From the NCBI RefSeq assembly GCF_036850765.1, contig NC_089493.1, forward strand, positions 297,592,349-297,656,348: DNA of 64,000 nt, read 5' to 3'. The stretch's first letter is position 1, and the number at the start of each line of letters is the position of its first letter. The notes below the pieces were generated by a model, which saw only the letters and a program-made list of their open reading frames with translations, had not been told where the DNA came from and did not search any database. Shown here one piece after another: positions 43,801 through 56,200 of this stretch. This stretch comes from Saccopteryx bilineata (Eukaryota > Chordata > Mammalia > Chiroptera > Emballonuridae). The translations under genes were made by a program, and so were the position numbers.

Positions 43801-46800
43801 TTGGAGAGAGGAGAGAGAGAGAGAGAGAGAGAAGGGGGAGGAGCAGGAAGCACCCACTCCCATATGTGCCTTGACCAGACAAGCCCAGGGTCTCAAACCG
43901 GCAACCTCAACATTCCAGGTGGACGCTTTATCCACAGCGCCACCGGAGTCACTCACAGGAGAAATGTGCCAGGGATCTTAGAGTGACAAGTGTGAAGTCA
44001 CAGGGCCCAGAAAAGCACGCTTGTCGCCAGTAGGGGGTGGGGGACGGGGGGCGGTGTTAACACGGCCTCCAGGCAGCTGACGGGTGGGGGCAGGTGGGCA
44101 CGCACTTCACCGGCCACGCTCACTCTCTCGCTGGTGGTTTGTGTGTGGAAGCGATACTCTTACTATCTGGCCAACGGGGTCCGGAAAGACATGATTGCCC
44201 CGGAAGAGGATGAGGTGATGGTTCGGATTTCGAAGCTGATTCCTCACACACTCCTGGCAAGCCCCCGCCTGGAGCCCCTGGTGAAGCGCCTCGTGGAGGA
44301 GAAGGAGAAGGACTATTACAGCAGCCTGATGAAAAGCACAGGTGAGGCTGGGAGGAGCTGGGGCAGGGGGCTCCCAGGTGGGGGGCTCCTGCGTTCCTCA
44401 CTCGCACTCTCAGTCCTCAACTCCGGTTCCTCTGACAACGCCAGAAGCGTCGTCTAACTTTTCATTCGCGTGCCCCCCTCAGACCCCCATCCCTCATGGC
44501 TAGACCTGCCCTCCTCTCACGTTAATGTGCCTCCACGTAGCCTGGTGGTCTGCTTAGAATGCAGACTCGGATGCATAGATCTGAGGCAGACCCAAGTTCC
44601 TGAATTCCTGTTTTCTTTCTTTCTTTTTTTAAATTCAGTGAGAGGAGGGGAGGCTGAGACAAACTCCCGCATGCACTCCAACCAGGATCCACCCAGTAAG
44701 CCCACTAGGGGGCGATGCTCTGCCCATCTGGGGTGCTGCTCTGTTGCTCAGCAACCAAGCTCTTCTTAGCACCTGAGGCGGAGGCCATGGAGCCATCCTC
44801 AGTGCTTGGAGTCAAGTTGCTCCAATTGAGCCATGGCTGCAGAAGAGGGAGAGAGAGAGAGAGAGAAAGAAAAGAGAGGAGTGGAAGGGGGGAGAAGCAG
44901 ATGGGTGCTTCTCCTATGTGCCCTGACCGGGAATCAAACCTGGGATATCCACATCCTGGGCCAATGCTCTACCACTGAGCCAACCGGCCAGGGCAGGTTC
45001 TGCATTTCTAACAGGCTCCCAGGTGAGGCAACAGGTGCTACTCCCCCAGGGACAGCACAACGGTTAGCCAGGGCCGACTCAACATTTAAAGTCATGCTCA
45101 ATGCCTGCCTCTTTCCACAAGTGTTTCTACCTCTCTCCAGTCATCGGAGGTCGCTGCGTCCTCTGTGCTGCTTTGGAACTTCTGTGCCGTTCTGTGAGGC
45201 TGGCCTTGGCTTTGCCGTCCTCGTGGGTCTTACCCGCCTCATGAGACCGGTAGCTCTTGGGTGGTAAAGGATGTCTGATTGATCCTCACTGCCCTGCGTC
45301 CCTGACCCGGGGTCTTGTGTTCACAGTTGGTCATGGGCAGTATTTGATGATGGTGAGTGGTGTGAGACACACCTCAAAGAGGAAGGGTGACGGTGCGAGT
45401 CCCCTACCTTCCTGTTTTATCTGGACAACAGCTATTTTGCTGTGGTTTTTGTTTTTTGTTTTTTACCAACTTGCCTAGTTAAGTTCTAATGTCCTAGTGA
45501 ACTTTCTAAGGTGTCGGCGTCATGGCTCCTCGTCTACGACAGGGTAGAGAACCAAACCCACAGGGAGAAACACGGAAAACCCTTCAAATTCCAGCCCCAA
45601 CCTGCCCCTCCTGTTTCACCACCGTAACCTCTAACCCCTGCACCTGCCGTGTCTGCCGCAGAAGGAGTAACGGCCCCTGGAGCGTATTCCACAGAAGTCG
45701 TGGCACTGCGCTTCTGTGTCCTGCTTGCTCCTGCCTCCCAGTGCTCCTGCCTCCCGGTCCTGTCCTGTCTGAGACACCCCGACTCAGGCCTGACGACCCA
45801 GCTTACACGGCACTTCGCCCGTGAAGCTCTCCCCAGTCTTTCTCTCCTTCCCTCGTGAAATTCTGGCCTCTCTGAATTTCCATTCTGAGTATCCCGGTCA
45901 TCCGTTGGGTTGATTTTCTCCGGCTCACTAGGTTAGCGTGAGAAGCCGGTGAATGAACGATTCATGGGGTAGAGCGAATAGTCGTCCCTTGTCACGCAGG
46001 ATGCTAGACGATCTCAACGGGGATTCAACCCTGAGTTCTTAGTGCCTCGGACGGTGACCTGGCCCAGCTGCGCCCCTGATCTGTCTTCAGGAGGAAGACA
46101 CCGAGCAGCGGTGGGGGACCTTCCTGCCCAGCTCGGTTATCCTCAGGGAGATTGCCAATGACCTTGTCAACCCCGGGGGGCACGTTCCAGCGTTCACCTT
46201 CCAAGCGCTGACGGCGTGAGCGCAGCGTGCTCGGGGGTCCCCGCGCACTGACCGCGTGAGCGCAGCGTGCTCGGGGTCCCCGCTCACTGACGGCGTGAGC
46301 GCAGCGTGCTCGGGGTCCCCGCGCACTGACCGCGTGAGCGCAGCGTGCTCGGGGTCCCCGCCCACTGACGGCGTGAGCGCAGCGTGCTCGGGGTCCCCGC
46401 GCACTGACCGCGTCCGTCTGTCCTGTTGGTTCTAGTGGACTACATCCTCCTGGACGCGGAGGAGAGGAAGCGGCTCTGCATCGCGACCGTCCCCCGCCGG
46501 TTCCCGCAGAGAGTGATCCGGGCCCCCGTCCCCTGGCACAGCGCCTACAGGAACGCCCAGACGTGGAGCGAGGAGCACCTGCACGTGGGGAGCCCCATGG
46601 TGCTCCGCTTGGAGGAGCTGTGGTTCTCAGAGTAAGCACGGCACCCCCGAATCCCCTGTCCTCTCTCTGTTGCCTCCCCTTCCCGTCTCAGACAGCAGCT
46701 TCTGCCATGTCCGGGGGCGGAGTCCTGCCCTCCACGTGCAATGACAACATTCCAGACCATTCGGGCGCGGGGACTGGGGCGCGCCCTCTGTGACCCCCAG

Positions 46801-50200: not shown

Positions 50201-53200
50201 TGGGGGGGTGTGGTGAAGGTCAACGCATCCGCTGACCTGAAAGAAATGCAAAGGATTAAAGAGCATCGCCCAGGAGAGCGTCCACTCAACACGGATACTT
50301 GGAGCCCCGCACCGTGTACGGCAGTGTGCTGAGGGCGGCCGGTGTGTCCCGGTGCACCTGTCAGAGGGGGTAGGTGTGTCCCGGTGCACCTGTCAGAGGG
50401 GCGCAGGTGTGTCCCGGTGCACCTGTCAGAGGGGCGCAGGTGTGTCCCGGTGCACCTGTCAGAGGGGTGCACCTGTCAGAGGGGCACAGGTGTGTCCCGG
50501 TGCACCTGTCAGAGGGGCACAGGTGTGTCCCGGTGCACCTGTCAGAGGGGGGCAGGTGTGTCCCGGTGCACCTGTCAGAGGGGGGCAGGTGTGTCCCGGT
50601 GCACCTGTCAGAGGGGGTAGGTGTGTCCCGGTGCACCTGTCAGAGGGGGGTAGGTGTGTCCCGGTGCACCTGTCAGAGGGGGGTAGGTGTGTCCCGGTGC
50701 ACCTGTCAGAGGGGGGTAGGTGTGTCCCGGTGCACCTGTCAGAGGGGTAGGTGTGTCCCGGTGCACCTGTCAGAGGGGTGCACCTGTCAGAGGGGGGTAG
50801 GTGTGTCCCGGTGCACCTGTCAGAGGGGGGTAGGTGTGTCCCGGTGCACCTGTCAGAGGGGCGTAGGTGTGTCCCGGTGCACCTGTCAGAGGGGGGTAGG
50901 TGTGTCCCGGTGCACCTGTCAGAGGGGGGTAGGTGTGTCCCGGTGCACCTGTCAGAGGGGGGCAGGTGTGTCCTGGTGCACCTGTCAGAGGGCCGCAGGT
51001 GTGTCCTGGTGCACCTGTCAGAGGGGCGTAGGTGTGTCCTGGTGCACCTGTCAGAGGGGGGTAGGTATGTCCCGGTGCACCTGTCAGAGGAGTGCACCTG
51101 TCAGAGGGGGGTAGGTGTGTCCCGGTGCACCTGTCAGAGGGGGGCAGGTGTGTCCTGGTGCACCTGTCAGAGGGGCGTAGGTGTGTCCTGGTGCACCTGT
51201 CAGAGGGGCGTAGGTGTGTCCTGGTGCACCTGTCAGAGGGGCGTAGGTGTGTCCTGGTGCACCTGTCAGAGGGGCGTAGGTGTGTCCTGGTGCACCTGTC
51301 AGAGGGGTGCAGGTGTGTCCTGGTGCACCTGTCAGAGGGGTGCACCTGTCAGAGGGGGGCAGGTGTGTCCCGGTGCACCTGTCAGAGGGGCGCAGGTCTG
51401 TAGGTTTCTGGGTTCAGACCAAAGCCATCCTCCCAGTTTTCTGAAGTAGCTCAACTGAGCACTTGATCATGAAGGTGGTGCATTGCTTTCCTGAGTCCTC
51501 TGTGTCTTCACTGCCTGTTGTGAAGAACTTCGACTGGTCCGTTTGGGGTCCCACTTCCCAGACAGCCACAGGGGAAGTTTGTGCCCAAACCCTCACCCCC
51601 CACGGGCGACCCGGCACAACACAGAGGAAGACTCAGTAGACACCCTCTTTGCGAGAGTTTTTGGGGACGGCCCACTCCCTCCTCCGGCTCCCGCGTTTTT
51701 CAGATGCACTTGGTTTTGATCTGCTCACATCTTCTCTCCTGGGAGAAAAGACAGGAGGGGCCCTTCGAGCCTGTCCTCTCTGCCTTCGGTCACCGAGCAC
51801 CTTCTCTGCTGAGGCCACCACGTGTCCCTTTCTCTCGGCAGATTGAGGGACCTCCGCTTCGTCCGCACAGCGGAGCTCCTGGCGGGCACGCTGCCTCTGC
51901 AGCCCGGCGAGTTCTGGGATGTGGTCCAGAGACACTGCGTGGAGGCGCGCCAGGTCCTTCTCAACAAGTCAGTGTCCCCCCCCTGTCCCCCCCCGCCACC
52001 CAGGGTGGGCCAGGTCCTTCTCAACAAGTCAGTGTCCCCCCCTGTCCCCCCCTGTCACCCAGGGTGGGCCAGGTCCTTCTCAACAAGTCAGTGTCCCCCC
52101 CTGTCCCCCCCTGTCACCCAGGGTGGGCCAGGTCCTTCTCAACAAGTCAGTGTCCCCCCCTGTCCCCCCCCGCCACCCAGGGTGGGCCAGGTCCTTCTCA
52201 ACAAGTCAGTGTCCCCCCCCTGTCCCCCCCCTGTCACCCAGGGTGGGCCAGGTCCTTCTCAACAAGTCAGTGTCCGCCTCCTCCCCCCACCCCACCGCCA
52301 CCCAGGGTGGGGCAGGTCCTTCTCAACAAGTCAGTGTCCCCCCCTGTCACCCAGGGTGGGCCAGGTCCTTCTCAACAAGTCAGTGTCCCCCCCTGTCCCC
52401 CCCCGTCACCCAGGGTGGGCCAGGTCCTTCTCAACAAGTCAGTGTCCCCCCCTGCCCCCCCTGTCACCCAGGGTGGGCCAGGTCCTTCTCAACAAGTCAG
52501 TGTCCCCCCCCGTCCCCCCCCTGTCACCCAGGGTGGGCCAGGTCCTTCTCAACAAGTCAGTGTCCCCCCCTGCCCCCCCCTGTCACCCAGGGTGGGCCAG
52601 GTCCTTCTCAACAAGTCAGTGTCCCCCCCTGTCCCCCCCTGTCACCCAGGGTGGGCCAGGTCCTTCTCAACAAGTCAGTGTCCCCCCCCGTCCCCCCCCT
52701 GTCACCCAGGGTGGGCCAGGTCCTTCTCAACAAGTCAGTGTCCCCCCCCTGTCCCTCCCCGTCACCCAGGGTGGGCCAGGTCCTTCTCAACAAGTCAGTG
52801 TCCCCCCCTGTCCCCCCCTGTCACCCAGGGTGGGCCAGGTCCTTCTCAACAAGTCAGTGTCCCCCCTGTCCCCCCCCCGTCACCCAGGGTGGGCCAGGTC
52901 CTTCTCAACAAGTCAGTGTCCCCCCCTGTCCCCCCCTGTCACCCAGGGTGGGCCAGGTCCTTCTCAACAAGTCAGTGTCCCCCCCTGTCCCCCCCCCTGT
53001 CACCCAGGGTGGGCCAGGTCCTTCTCAACAAGTCAGTGTCCCCCCCTGCCCCCCCTGTCACCCAGGGTGGGCCAGGTCCTTCTCAACAAGTCAGTGTCCC
53101 CCCCTGTCCCCCCCCTGTCACCCAGGGTGGGCCAGGTCCTTCTCAACAAGTCAGTGTCCCCCCCCGTCCCCCCCCCTGTCACCCAGGGTGGGCCAGGTCC

Positions 53201-56200
53201 TTCTCAACAAGTCAGTGTCCCCCCCCTGTCCCTCCCCGTCACCCAGGGTGGGCCAGGTCCTTCTCAACAAGTCAGTGTCCCCCCCTGTCCCCCCCTGTCA
53301 CCCAGGGTGGGCCAGGTCCTTCTCAACAAGTCAGTGTCCGCCCCCCCCCTGTCACCCAGCGTGGGCCAGGTCCTTCTCAACAAGTCAGTGTCCCCCCCTG
53401 TCCCCCCCCTGTCACCCAGGGTGGGCCAGGTCCTTCTCAACAAGTCAGTGTCCCCCCCTGTCCCCCCCCTGTCACCCAGGGTGGGCCAGGTCCTTCTCAA
53501 CAAGTCAGTGTCCGCCCCCCCCCCCCGCCACCCAGGGTGGGGCTGCTTCACGGGGGGGGGAGTCCTCGAGACAGAGAGCCCTCCGGCAGGAACACGGGTC
53601 CCCAGCCCGGGGGGTGGGCTGCGGTTTGCAGACTTCCCACAGACACCATCTCCCTCCATCCCCTTCCTGCCTGGGTCCCCCCCCCTCCATCCAGCCTTGG
53701 TGTCTCCTCACCAATTCTGCTCTTCGTGCCCCCCCCAACTCCGAGCTCCCTCTGGCTTTTTAAACTCTCTCGTGAGAATTCACTGTGAGGGTACCCCTTT
53801 TGTGCCCCTCTTCCGAAGTCCTCAAGGCCTTGCTGGGTGACAGGACAGCGCAGCTGAGTGACCTGTGTTCAGGGGGCCCAGATGAACAGCCGCGGGGTTC
53901 CAAGCTTAGGTGGTTTCCAGGCACTTAGTTAATTCCTGTCTTTCTTCACAAATGCACACAGGGCTGTGTCCGGAGCCAGAGACTTTCTCTCCTATAAAAC
54001 GATGATGATGCTACTTGCCCTTGGAGTTTTTGGGGGGGGGGTTGTTTATTTTTTGTATTTTTCTGAAGTGAGAAGCAGGGAGGCACACAGACAGACTCCT
54101 GGATGTGCCTGACTGGGACCTACCTGGCATGCTCACCAGGGGGTGATGCTCTGCCCATCTGGGGAGTCGCTCTGTCGCAACCAGAGCCATTCTAGAGCCT
54201 GAGGCAGAGGCCACAGAGCCATCCCCAGTGCCCGGGCCAACTTTGCTCCAGTGGAGCCTTGGCTGCGGGAGGGGAAGAGAGAGACAGAGAGGAAGGAGAG
54301 GGGAGGGGTGGAGAAGCAGATGGGCGCTTCTCCTGTGTGCCCTGGCCGGAAATTGAACCCAAGACCTCCACACACGTAGCGGACGCTCTACCGCTGAGCC
54401 AACCAGCCAGGTGGCCCCTTGGGCTTTTATTATCGGGGAATATGCAGGTCTATGCAGTAGCTGGCTCAGGGTCACTGCTTAGTACAGATGGTGATTATCA
54501 CCCCTGTGACTGTGACTTGCCCTCTAGTCTAGTACTTCTAGATTGCTGCAGTCGTCGTTTCCTGGCAATCAGAAAAGAGATGTCACGGAAGGGACAGGGT
54601 GGTGGTTCCCACCAGGAATCGGGCATGAGAATTGGGGGGCAGTAGGAAGAAAGGACCAGTGAGGCGTCCATTTCTTTCTCCTTTCGGTTTTCAGACTTCT
54701 CCCCTGGACTTCTGAACGGCCGCCACCGCCACCCTGGAGTGTCTCCTCCCGTGCTTTCCTCCTTTCCTCCCCTTTCTCTCTTCTTTCCCTGAGAAAGTCT
54801 GAACCGTAGACCAGAGACTTGCCAGGGAGGAGACACCACACAAAACATTCCAGTTTCCTTAGGCGACTTCACCCCAATCTCTGCTTATAATTTAAAAACA
54901 AAAAACAAAAAACAACTCTAAGCTCTTCTGACAAAATGTGACACCGGGATCCCCTATCCATCTGGCTACTGTTAATGGAAGAAGAACCTCTCGGGTTTTT
55001 TTTCCACAGGAAAGGGCTGTTGGCAGGAGAGGCCGCGGGCGGGCGGGAAAGCCCCAGTTGGCAGAGCTGCCGTCTCCCCTGCCATGGAGAGTGGGGCCGG
55101 CGGGGAGGAGGCCTCCTGCCTCCAGACTCGGAGGAGGCTCTTACGTGGACGCTCCCTGGAATTTGCAGGTGGATCCCCACCTGTGCGCAGCTGTTCGTCT
55201 CCTGGAAGGAGCACTGGGTCCATTTTGCTCCCAAGAGTGACTACGACTCCTCACGTCACATCGAGGAGTATTTTGCCTCCGTGGCCTCGTTCATGTCCCT
55301 GCAACTCAGAGGGCTGGTCATTAAGTCTCTTGAGGACCTTGTCTCTTTTTTCATGATACACAAGGTAGGTAGGGGCCACTCAGAGGCTCTTCTGAAGGAC
55401 ATGACCAAGCTGGAGCGAGGGTTCCATCAGCTATGAAGCCAGGACAAAAAAAAAACAAAACAAACAAACAAAAAGACCCCCACACAATTCTTGATTCCCA
55501 CATAGTTCATTCAGGTCATTATTACTTTACAAACTAATAACGGGAAACTGCAGCAAGCTTTCCTGAGATAGTTACCCAACTATGAAGTTGATGAACATCG
55601 ACAGAAATGGAGACGTTGATAAAGAAATCTGAAGAAAACTCTGGCAGGGTAGCTCAGGGGTCCCCAAGCTACGGCCCACGGGCCGCATGCAGCCCCCTGT
55701 GGCCATTTATCCGGCCCCCGCCGCACTTCCGGAAGGGGCACCTCTTTCACTGGTGGTCAGTGAGAGGAGCACACTGACCATCTCATTAGCCAAAAGCAGG
55801 CCCAGAGTTCCCAATGAAGTACTGGTCAGTTTGTTGATTTCAAGTTACTTGTTCTTTATTTTAAATATTGTATTTGTTCCCGTTTTGTTTTTTTACTTTA
55901 AAATAAGATATGTGCAGTGTGCATAGGGATATGTTCATAGTTTTGTTTTTTTTTTCCCTGTATTTTTCTGAAACCTAAAACAGGGAGAGGCAGTCAGACA
56001 GATTCCCGCATGCGCCCGACCGGGATCCACCCGGCATGCCCACCAGGGGGCGACGCTCTGCCCACCAGGGGGCGATGCTCTGCCCCTCCAGGGCGTCGCT
56101 CTGTTGCGACCAGAGCCACTCTAGTGCCTGAGGCAGAGGCCATGGAGCCATCCCCAGCGCCCGGGCCATCTTTGCTCCAATGGAGCCTTGGCTGCAGGAG

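Follow-up and report, generated by a model that had tools for sequence, protein, structure and literature searches.

The window analysed here is a 64,000-nucleotide stretch of the genome of the bat Saccopteryx bilineata (contig C4, positions 297592349 to 297656348 of 300,074,216, in an assembly of 2,612,309,609 bases and 256 contigs). It carries exons of DNAH3, a sperm-tail motor gene, and one of these (here termed exon A) ends inside the first copy of a minisatellite in which the end of the exon and its donor splice site are found 27 times. Deficiency of DNAH3 reportedly makes male humans and mice infertile (PMC11540302, PMC10834362), so failure of DNAH3 splicing should be costly.

DNAH3 exons A and B

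Exon A is 126 nucleotides long, enters and leaves in phase 2, and lies between introns of 5,210 nucleotides upstream and 3,201 nucleotides downstream. Its translation matches residues 363-403 of human DNAH3 (PDB chain 8j07_g3; E 4.5e-17) and also 9fqr_Xx, a chain of 4069 residues for which the depositors' label differs. The exon ends in ...LLNK, with the K codon split as AA/G (here and below, a slash marks a splice boundary), and exon B opens with G TGG at position 55169. Joining position 51967 to 55169 preserves the frame at AA/G TGG, giving K/W, and the joined exons align without gaps to both PDB chains and with 96% identity across the junction to S. leptura DNAH3. Homology and the junction thus agree with the gene identity, exon end and phases that had been proposed in an earlier reading of this DNA from sequence only.

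The join from exon A to exon B is direct in all five DNAH3 proteins compared (human, 9fqr_Xx, S. leptura, chinchilla and hedgehog). The three predicted proteins from S. leptura, Chinchilla and Erinaceus (hedgehog), which are the 3 of 21 homology-search candidates that passed E <= 1 in a database of cluster representatives, read LLNK/WIPTC and lack VGQVLLNK, and neither the 8j07_g3 nor the 9fqr_Xx chain has an insert at the junction; none of these proteins is from this individual. The S. leptura protein differs from that of the window at several residues, and near its residues 107-122 a short stretch, SSVPRVTSSVPRE, is repeated that occurs once in the window's exon. No processed retrocopy of the joined exons (107 amino acids) was found in the genome, where the three matches are the two real exons and one at chance level (E 4.53).

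A 59-bp minisatellite spanning the donor of exon A

Tandem Repeats Finder (TRF) reports an array of period 59 with 27.0 copies and 92% matches that begins within the last nucleotides of exon A (Table 1). A core sequence, AGGTCCTTCTCAACAA, occurs 27 times with spacings of 49-64 nucleotides, and an exact 19-mer, CAGGTCCTTCTCAACAAGT, has 27 matches in the whole assembly, all inside this array, while the reversed 19-mer pattern has none in the whole assembly. These counts bear out the report, in the sequence-only reading, of 27 copies of the exon end and donor. Each copy repeats the last 16 nucleotides of exon A plus the donor, and all 27 donors share the 9-mer CAAGTCAGT, or CAA/GTCAGT; the first ten bases on the intron side are GTCAGTGTCC in 27 of 27 units. 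The earlier description of competition among identical donors is therefore a fair one as far as the DNA is concerned.

Each of the 27 donors is followed by CACCCAG, and the distance from CACCCAG to the next GT is exactly 24 nucleotides in all 26 segments, as the sequence-only reading had described for the repeats with their preceding C/T-rich tract. The 24-nucleotide segment consists of GGTGGGCC plus the core in 24 of the 26 cases, and of GGTGGGGC plus the core and CGTGGGCC plus the core in one case each; GGTGGGGC is kept at the junction of units 6 and 7 and in the intron flank past unit 27. Nearly all variation among units falls in the C-rich tract. The tracts of units 14 and 22 are identical, as are those of units 15 and 23, and a single C separates those of units 13 and 21, a pattern that suggests exchange of several units at once.

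With head-to-tail units of 59 bp in 27.0 copies, the array falls within the usual range of minisatellites (units of about 10-100 bp). Three open reading frames run through it (51524-53788, 51813-53840 and 51847-53763), occupying all three forward frames. The coding frame is indeed open across the array, as the earlier reading stated, but because the other two frames are open as well, this says nothing about coding and was rejected as evidence of it.

Table 1. Positions of DNAH3 exons and of repeat and splice-site features
Feature	Position	Strand	Basis
Preceding DNAH3 exon	46436..46631	+	Protein homology
33-bp minisatellite in intron upstream of exon A, without exon sequence	50333..51401	.	TRF
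DNAH3 exon A; last 16-19 nt are array copy 1	51842..51967	+	Human DNAH3 match, junction to S. leptura
59-bp minisatellite, 27 copies: exon-end copy, donor CAA/GTCAGT, C-rich tract, CACCCAG	51949..53541	+	TRF, motif counts
Donor 1 GTCAGT, homology-supported splice site	51968..51973	+	Protein homology
First of 26 acceptor-like/donor-like 24-nt segments (GGTGGGCC + AGGTCCTTCTCAACAA); last ends 53503	52004..52027	+	Motif count
DNAH3 exon B, starts G TGG (K/W), donor GTAGGT	55169..55364	+	Protein homology
DNAH3 exon ending inside second array	L012:2767-2881		S. leptura protein mapping
Second donor-spanning array, 36 bp, 54 copies	L012:2872-4833 (C4:297689220-297691181)		TRF

A second donor-spanning array in DNAH3

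When TRF was run on the window and the following 200 kb (together the 264-kb region), a second array that spans a donor was found in DNAH3, 45 kb downstream of the first. Its 36-bp unit, CAGGGACACT/GTGAGTCC..., contains the last 10 nucleotides of another DNAH3 exon and the donor GTGAGT, and an exact 20-mer from it occurs 26 times in the 264-kb region. GT is intact at 48 of the 54 donor positions, while five read GA and one reads AT; these lost GTs indicate that later copies can decay. The coding frame soon meets stops in this array and there is no 24-nucleotide cassette, so the first array may owe its cassette to no more than where its unit happens to break. As judged from the two units, donor capture has happened twice in DNAH3.

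The architecture also has a direct precedent. In human CBS, the 31-bp variable number tandem repeat (VNTR) designated c.1444_1467+7(16_21) has a unit made of the last 24 coding nucleotides of an exon and 7 intron nucleotides, as the notation indicates, and is present in 16-21 copies (PMC2630376). Like that VNTR, the array at exon A has a unit that spans the end of a coding exon and the start of an intron; exon A ends inside copy 1, and copy 1 is the homology-supported splice site. By the make-up of its unit, the array is therefore a donor-spanning minisatellite of a kind already known. The human repeat lies in another gene and lineage and its 7 intron nucleotides leave no room for a tract and an acceptor-like site; copy-number variation is documented for it, whereas the exon A array is known from one assembly, in which its block-repeated units hint at such variation.

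Two further human systems resemble the array less closely. Length of an intronic VNTR in ABCA7 correlates with splicing (skipping of exon 19; PMC5954066), although the passage of that report used here calls the repeat intronic and mentions neither an exon end nor a donor. In CBS 844_845ins68, an intron/exon junction is duplicated and one of the two copies is strongly favored (PMC2630376); this insertion is not multi-copy, and the part of the source that describes it speaks of donors while the title of the work it cites names a 3′ splice site. The second DNAH3 array shares gene and donor capture with the first and differs in its shorter unit, its donor positions (6 of 54 decayed) and its lack of a cassette. 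The uniqueness implied by the sequence-only reading is thus not supported, given the second DNAH3 array and human CBS. What the present case adds is the presence of two such arrays in one gene, their size, and a unit whose length lets it pass for a full cassette.

Donor choice at exon A

We consider it likely that exon A, whose end and donor form copy 1 of the 27-copy minisatellite, is spliced from donor 1 and that the 26 downstream copies are mostly silent decoys. Published minigene work is the basis of this prediction. It found that donors are chosen by exon-spanning pairing once flanking introns exceed about 250 nucleotides, and that five minigenes with 365-nucleotide introns and two strong donors of identical sequence were spliced exclusively at the upstream one; this preference was kept in the S and M constructs when both donors were weakened, and human events of near equal donor strength in long introns also favor the upstream donor (PMC9225289). 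Both introns that flank the 126-nucleotide exon A are far above 250 nucleotides, and donor 1 is therefore predicted to win. Under exon definition with equal donors, the acceptor of exon A would pair with the nearest donor, donor 1, and so the 26 later copies would for the most part stay silent, although minor use of distal donors or cassettes may occur.

Several observations weigh against this prediction. In the same minigene study, the L and XL constructs skipped the exon when their identical donors were weak, the downstream donor was preferred in about 60% of all human events when strengths were not matched, and each minigene had two donors rather than the 27 present here (PMC9225289). The choice of donor 1 is itself predicted from protein homology and these minigenes. 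Of the 57 junctions between neighboring DNAH3 exon matches, 49 could be placed by using the S. leptura protein, and small donor and acceptor weight matrices were built from these 49 mapped sites; the other 8, one of which lies beside a masked stretch, were excluded from the test of junction avoidance described below. Donor 1 scores 5.23 bits, the 11th lowest of 49 DNAH3 donors and so on the weak side. For the array acceptors the median is 8.39, which exceeds the scores of 22 of the 49 true DNAH3 acceptors, by a matrix that scarcely separates C from T. In local folding, moreover, donor 1 is somewhat less accessible than the array copies, with an unpaired probability of 0.088 compared to 0.13-0.22 (the median of the 48 other DNAH3 donors is 0.0014). 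The idea that RNA structure holds the copies back was accordingly rejected: 44 of these 48 sites are less accessible than the array donors, donor 1 included.

The array may have been founded by a tandem duplication of about 59 bp, in which intron sequence ending in GGTGGGGC would have been fused to exon sequence beginning with CAGG at a junction that used one or two shared nucleotides. A single founding junction followed by later substitution would explain why GGTGGGGC stands at units 6/7 and in the 3′ flank whereas 24 segments carry GGTGGGCC and one carries CGTGGGCC. Slippage and multi-unit exchange would later have enlarged the array. If copies are added on the intron side, new copies would go to the harmless side and be tolerated, which would explain the survival of such arrays at donors.

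A different outcome builds on the likeness to in-frame 24-nucleotide microexons that the sequence-only reading had pointed out: single or grouped units would be spliced in, and the DNAH3 tail would gain VGQVLLNK repeats in variable number, placed after what is residue 381 in S. leptura. All 26 segments are 24 nucleotides long and fit phase 2 at both ends, and by weight matrix the scores of the array acceptors are mid-range among those of true ones. The spacers between adjacent units, given earlier as about 35 nucleotides, are in fact 25-40 nucleotides, and skipping one unit would give introns of 84-101 nucleotides, as that reading had anticipated without figures. CTCAAC, which is branch-like by the consensus, stands 28-43 nucleotides before the AG, as reckoned from the spacers. 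Poly-C-binding protein 1 (PCBP1) can in addition enhance cassette-exon inclusion via a C-rich tract independently of U2AF65 (PMC5829739).

Nevertheless, microexon use as the main outcome is very unlikely. The five proteins lack the insert, and the cassette is conserved no better than the rest of the unit: in a comparison within the array, 2 of 624 positions vary in the 26 cassettes compared to 0 of 459 in the remaining non-tract sequence (Fisher p 0.51). The tracts are poor in T, with a median of 3 T over 18 positions in array acceptors compared to 6 in the 49 true DNAH3 acceptors, of which only 3 have three or fewer. When the cut-offs are the donor score of the array and its median acceptor score, 24 acceptor/donor-like pairs 12-60 nucleotides apart occur in the array (16 of them of 24 nucleotides), but 36 comparable pairs occur elsewhere in the 264-kb region, one of 24 nucleotides. 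The second array, without such a cassette, again argues that the microexon look may follow from the break point of the unit. A bolder form of the idea, to which we assign a very slight chance indeed, holds that the minisatellite is an expandable bank of 26 phase-matched microexons whose C-rich acceptors are read via poly-C-binding proteins, giving a copy-number-dependent (VGQVLLNK)n in the DNAH3 tail. If this were true, DNAH3 isoforms in this bat would, with the second array, be written by minisatellites.

Appreciable use of distal donors is unlikely, though less easily set aside. The exon would then grow in steps of one unit, products out of frame would be degraded, and copy number would tune DNAH3 output. 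All donors are identical, and just 12 of the 26 distal copies would extend the exon without a change of frame. The human CBS VNTR has reportedly been linked to reduced CBS activity, to judge by the title of a 2001 article by Lievers et al. However, cross-exon proximity favors donor 1 (PMC9225289), and while donors 2 and 3 would give exons of 186 and 245 nucleotides, the exon passes 250 nucleotides from donor 4 on, with donors 4-27 giving 304 nucleotides or more.

That the array is an artefact of assembly or consensus is extremely improbable. C runs of up to 12 would be error-prone and may leave exact lengths and extension frames uncertain. Against such an origin, units differ in bases as well as length and partly in a block-repeated order, 37 other arrays lie in the same region, and at 1.6 kb the array is far shorter than long reads.

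A second set of possible decoys is formed by AGG/GTGGGC or AGG/GTGGGG, which follows all but one of the 27 CACC-C tracts of the array and so has 26 occurrences. Its donor score of 6.27 or 6.36 exceeds that of the real donor, but it is presumably the poorer donor by U1 pairing, and we place little weight on the score.

DNAH3 in this bat is a natural experiment on donor choice: one exon of this fertility gene is followed by 27 identical donors, and another by 48 with an intact GT. Were donor 1 used throughout, the role of cross-exon proximity would be confirmed for a natural gene; any other result would mean that the gene tolerates or uses isoforms made by minisatellites.

Minisatellites and splice junctions

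By a rule that requires a period of 10 or more, 3 or more copies and a length of 100 bp or more, 38 minisatellite loci cover 54,445 of 251,500 unmasked bases (21.65%) of the 264-kb region. The same rule finds none in the 50,000 bp of five 10-kb samples taken at 50-250 Mb of C4, while 7,956 of 10,000 bp are array in a sample at 295.0 Mb. DNAH3 lies 2.2-2.5 Mb from the end of the contig, and the exon A array about 2.4 Mb from it. The 295.0-Mb array and the DNAH3 locus, set against the five empty inner samples, suggest a chromosome end rich in minisatellites, and the donor arrays look like a by-product of it. The array at 295.0 Mb (L034:2045-10000) has a 50-bp unit and runs to the end of the sample.

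Splice junctions are largely spared. Within DNAH3, 2 of the 98 junction ends that could be mapped fall inside the 25 arrays (42,988 bp together), whereas 5,000 circular shifts gave 21.2 on average and two or fewer in a fraction of 0.0008. Independent placement of the arrays gave a mean of 21.0 and a corresponding fraction of 0.0. Both of the junction ends inside arrays belong to donors; in each case copy 1 lies in the exon and the remaining copies extend toward the intron. How strongly captures of this kind are purged can be gauged from the scarcity of arrays at mapped junctions.

Elsewhere in the gene, one DNAH3 intron holds a 13.9-kb array (42-bp unit, 325.6 copies; L012:6101 to L014:37) as well as a 4-kb array with a 28-bp unit (L014:572-4546). 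An array of three 95-bp copies (L017:4268-4551) stops 8 nucleotides short of a DNAH3 acceptor and covers part of its pyrimidine tract. In the intron upstream of exon A, the 33-bp unit carries CAG and GTGTGT, which are splice-like words without an exon.

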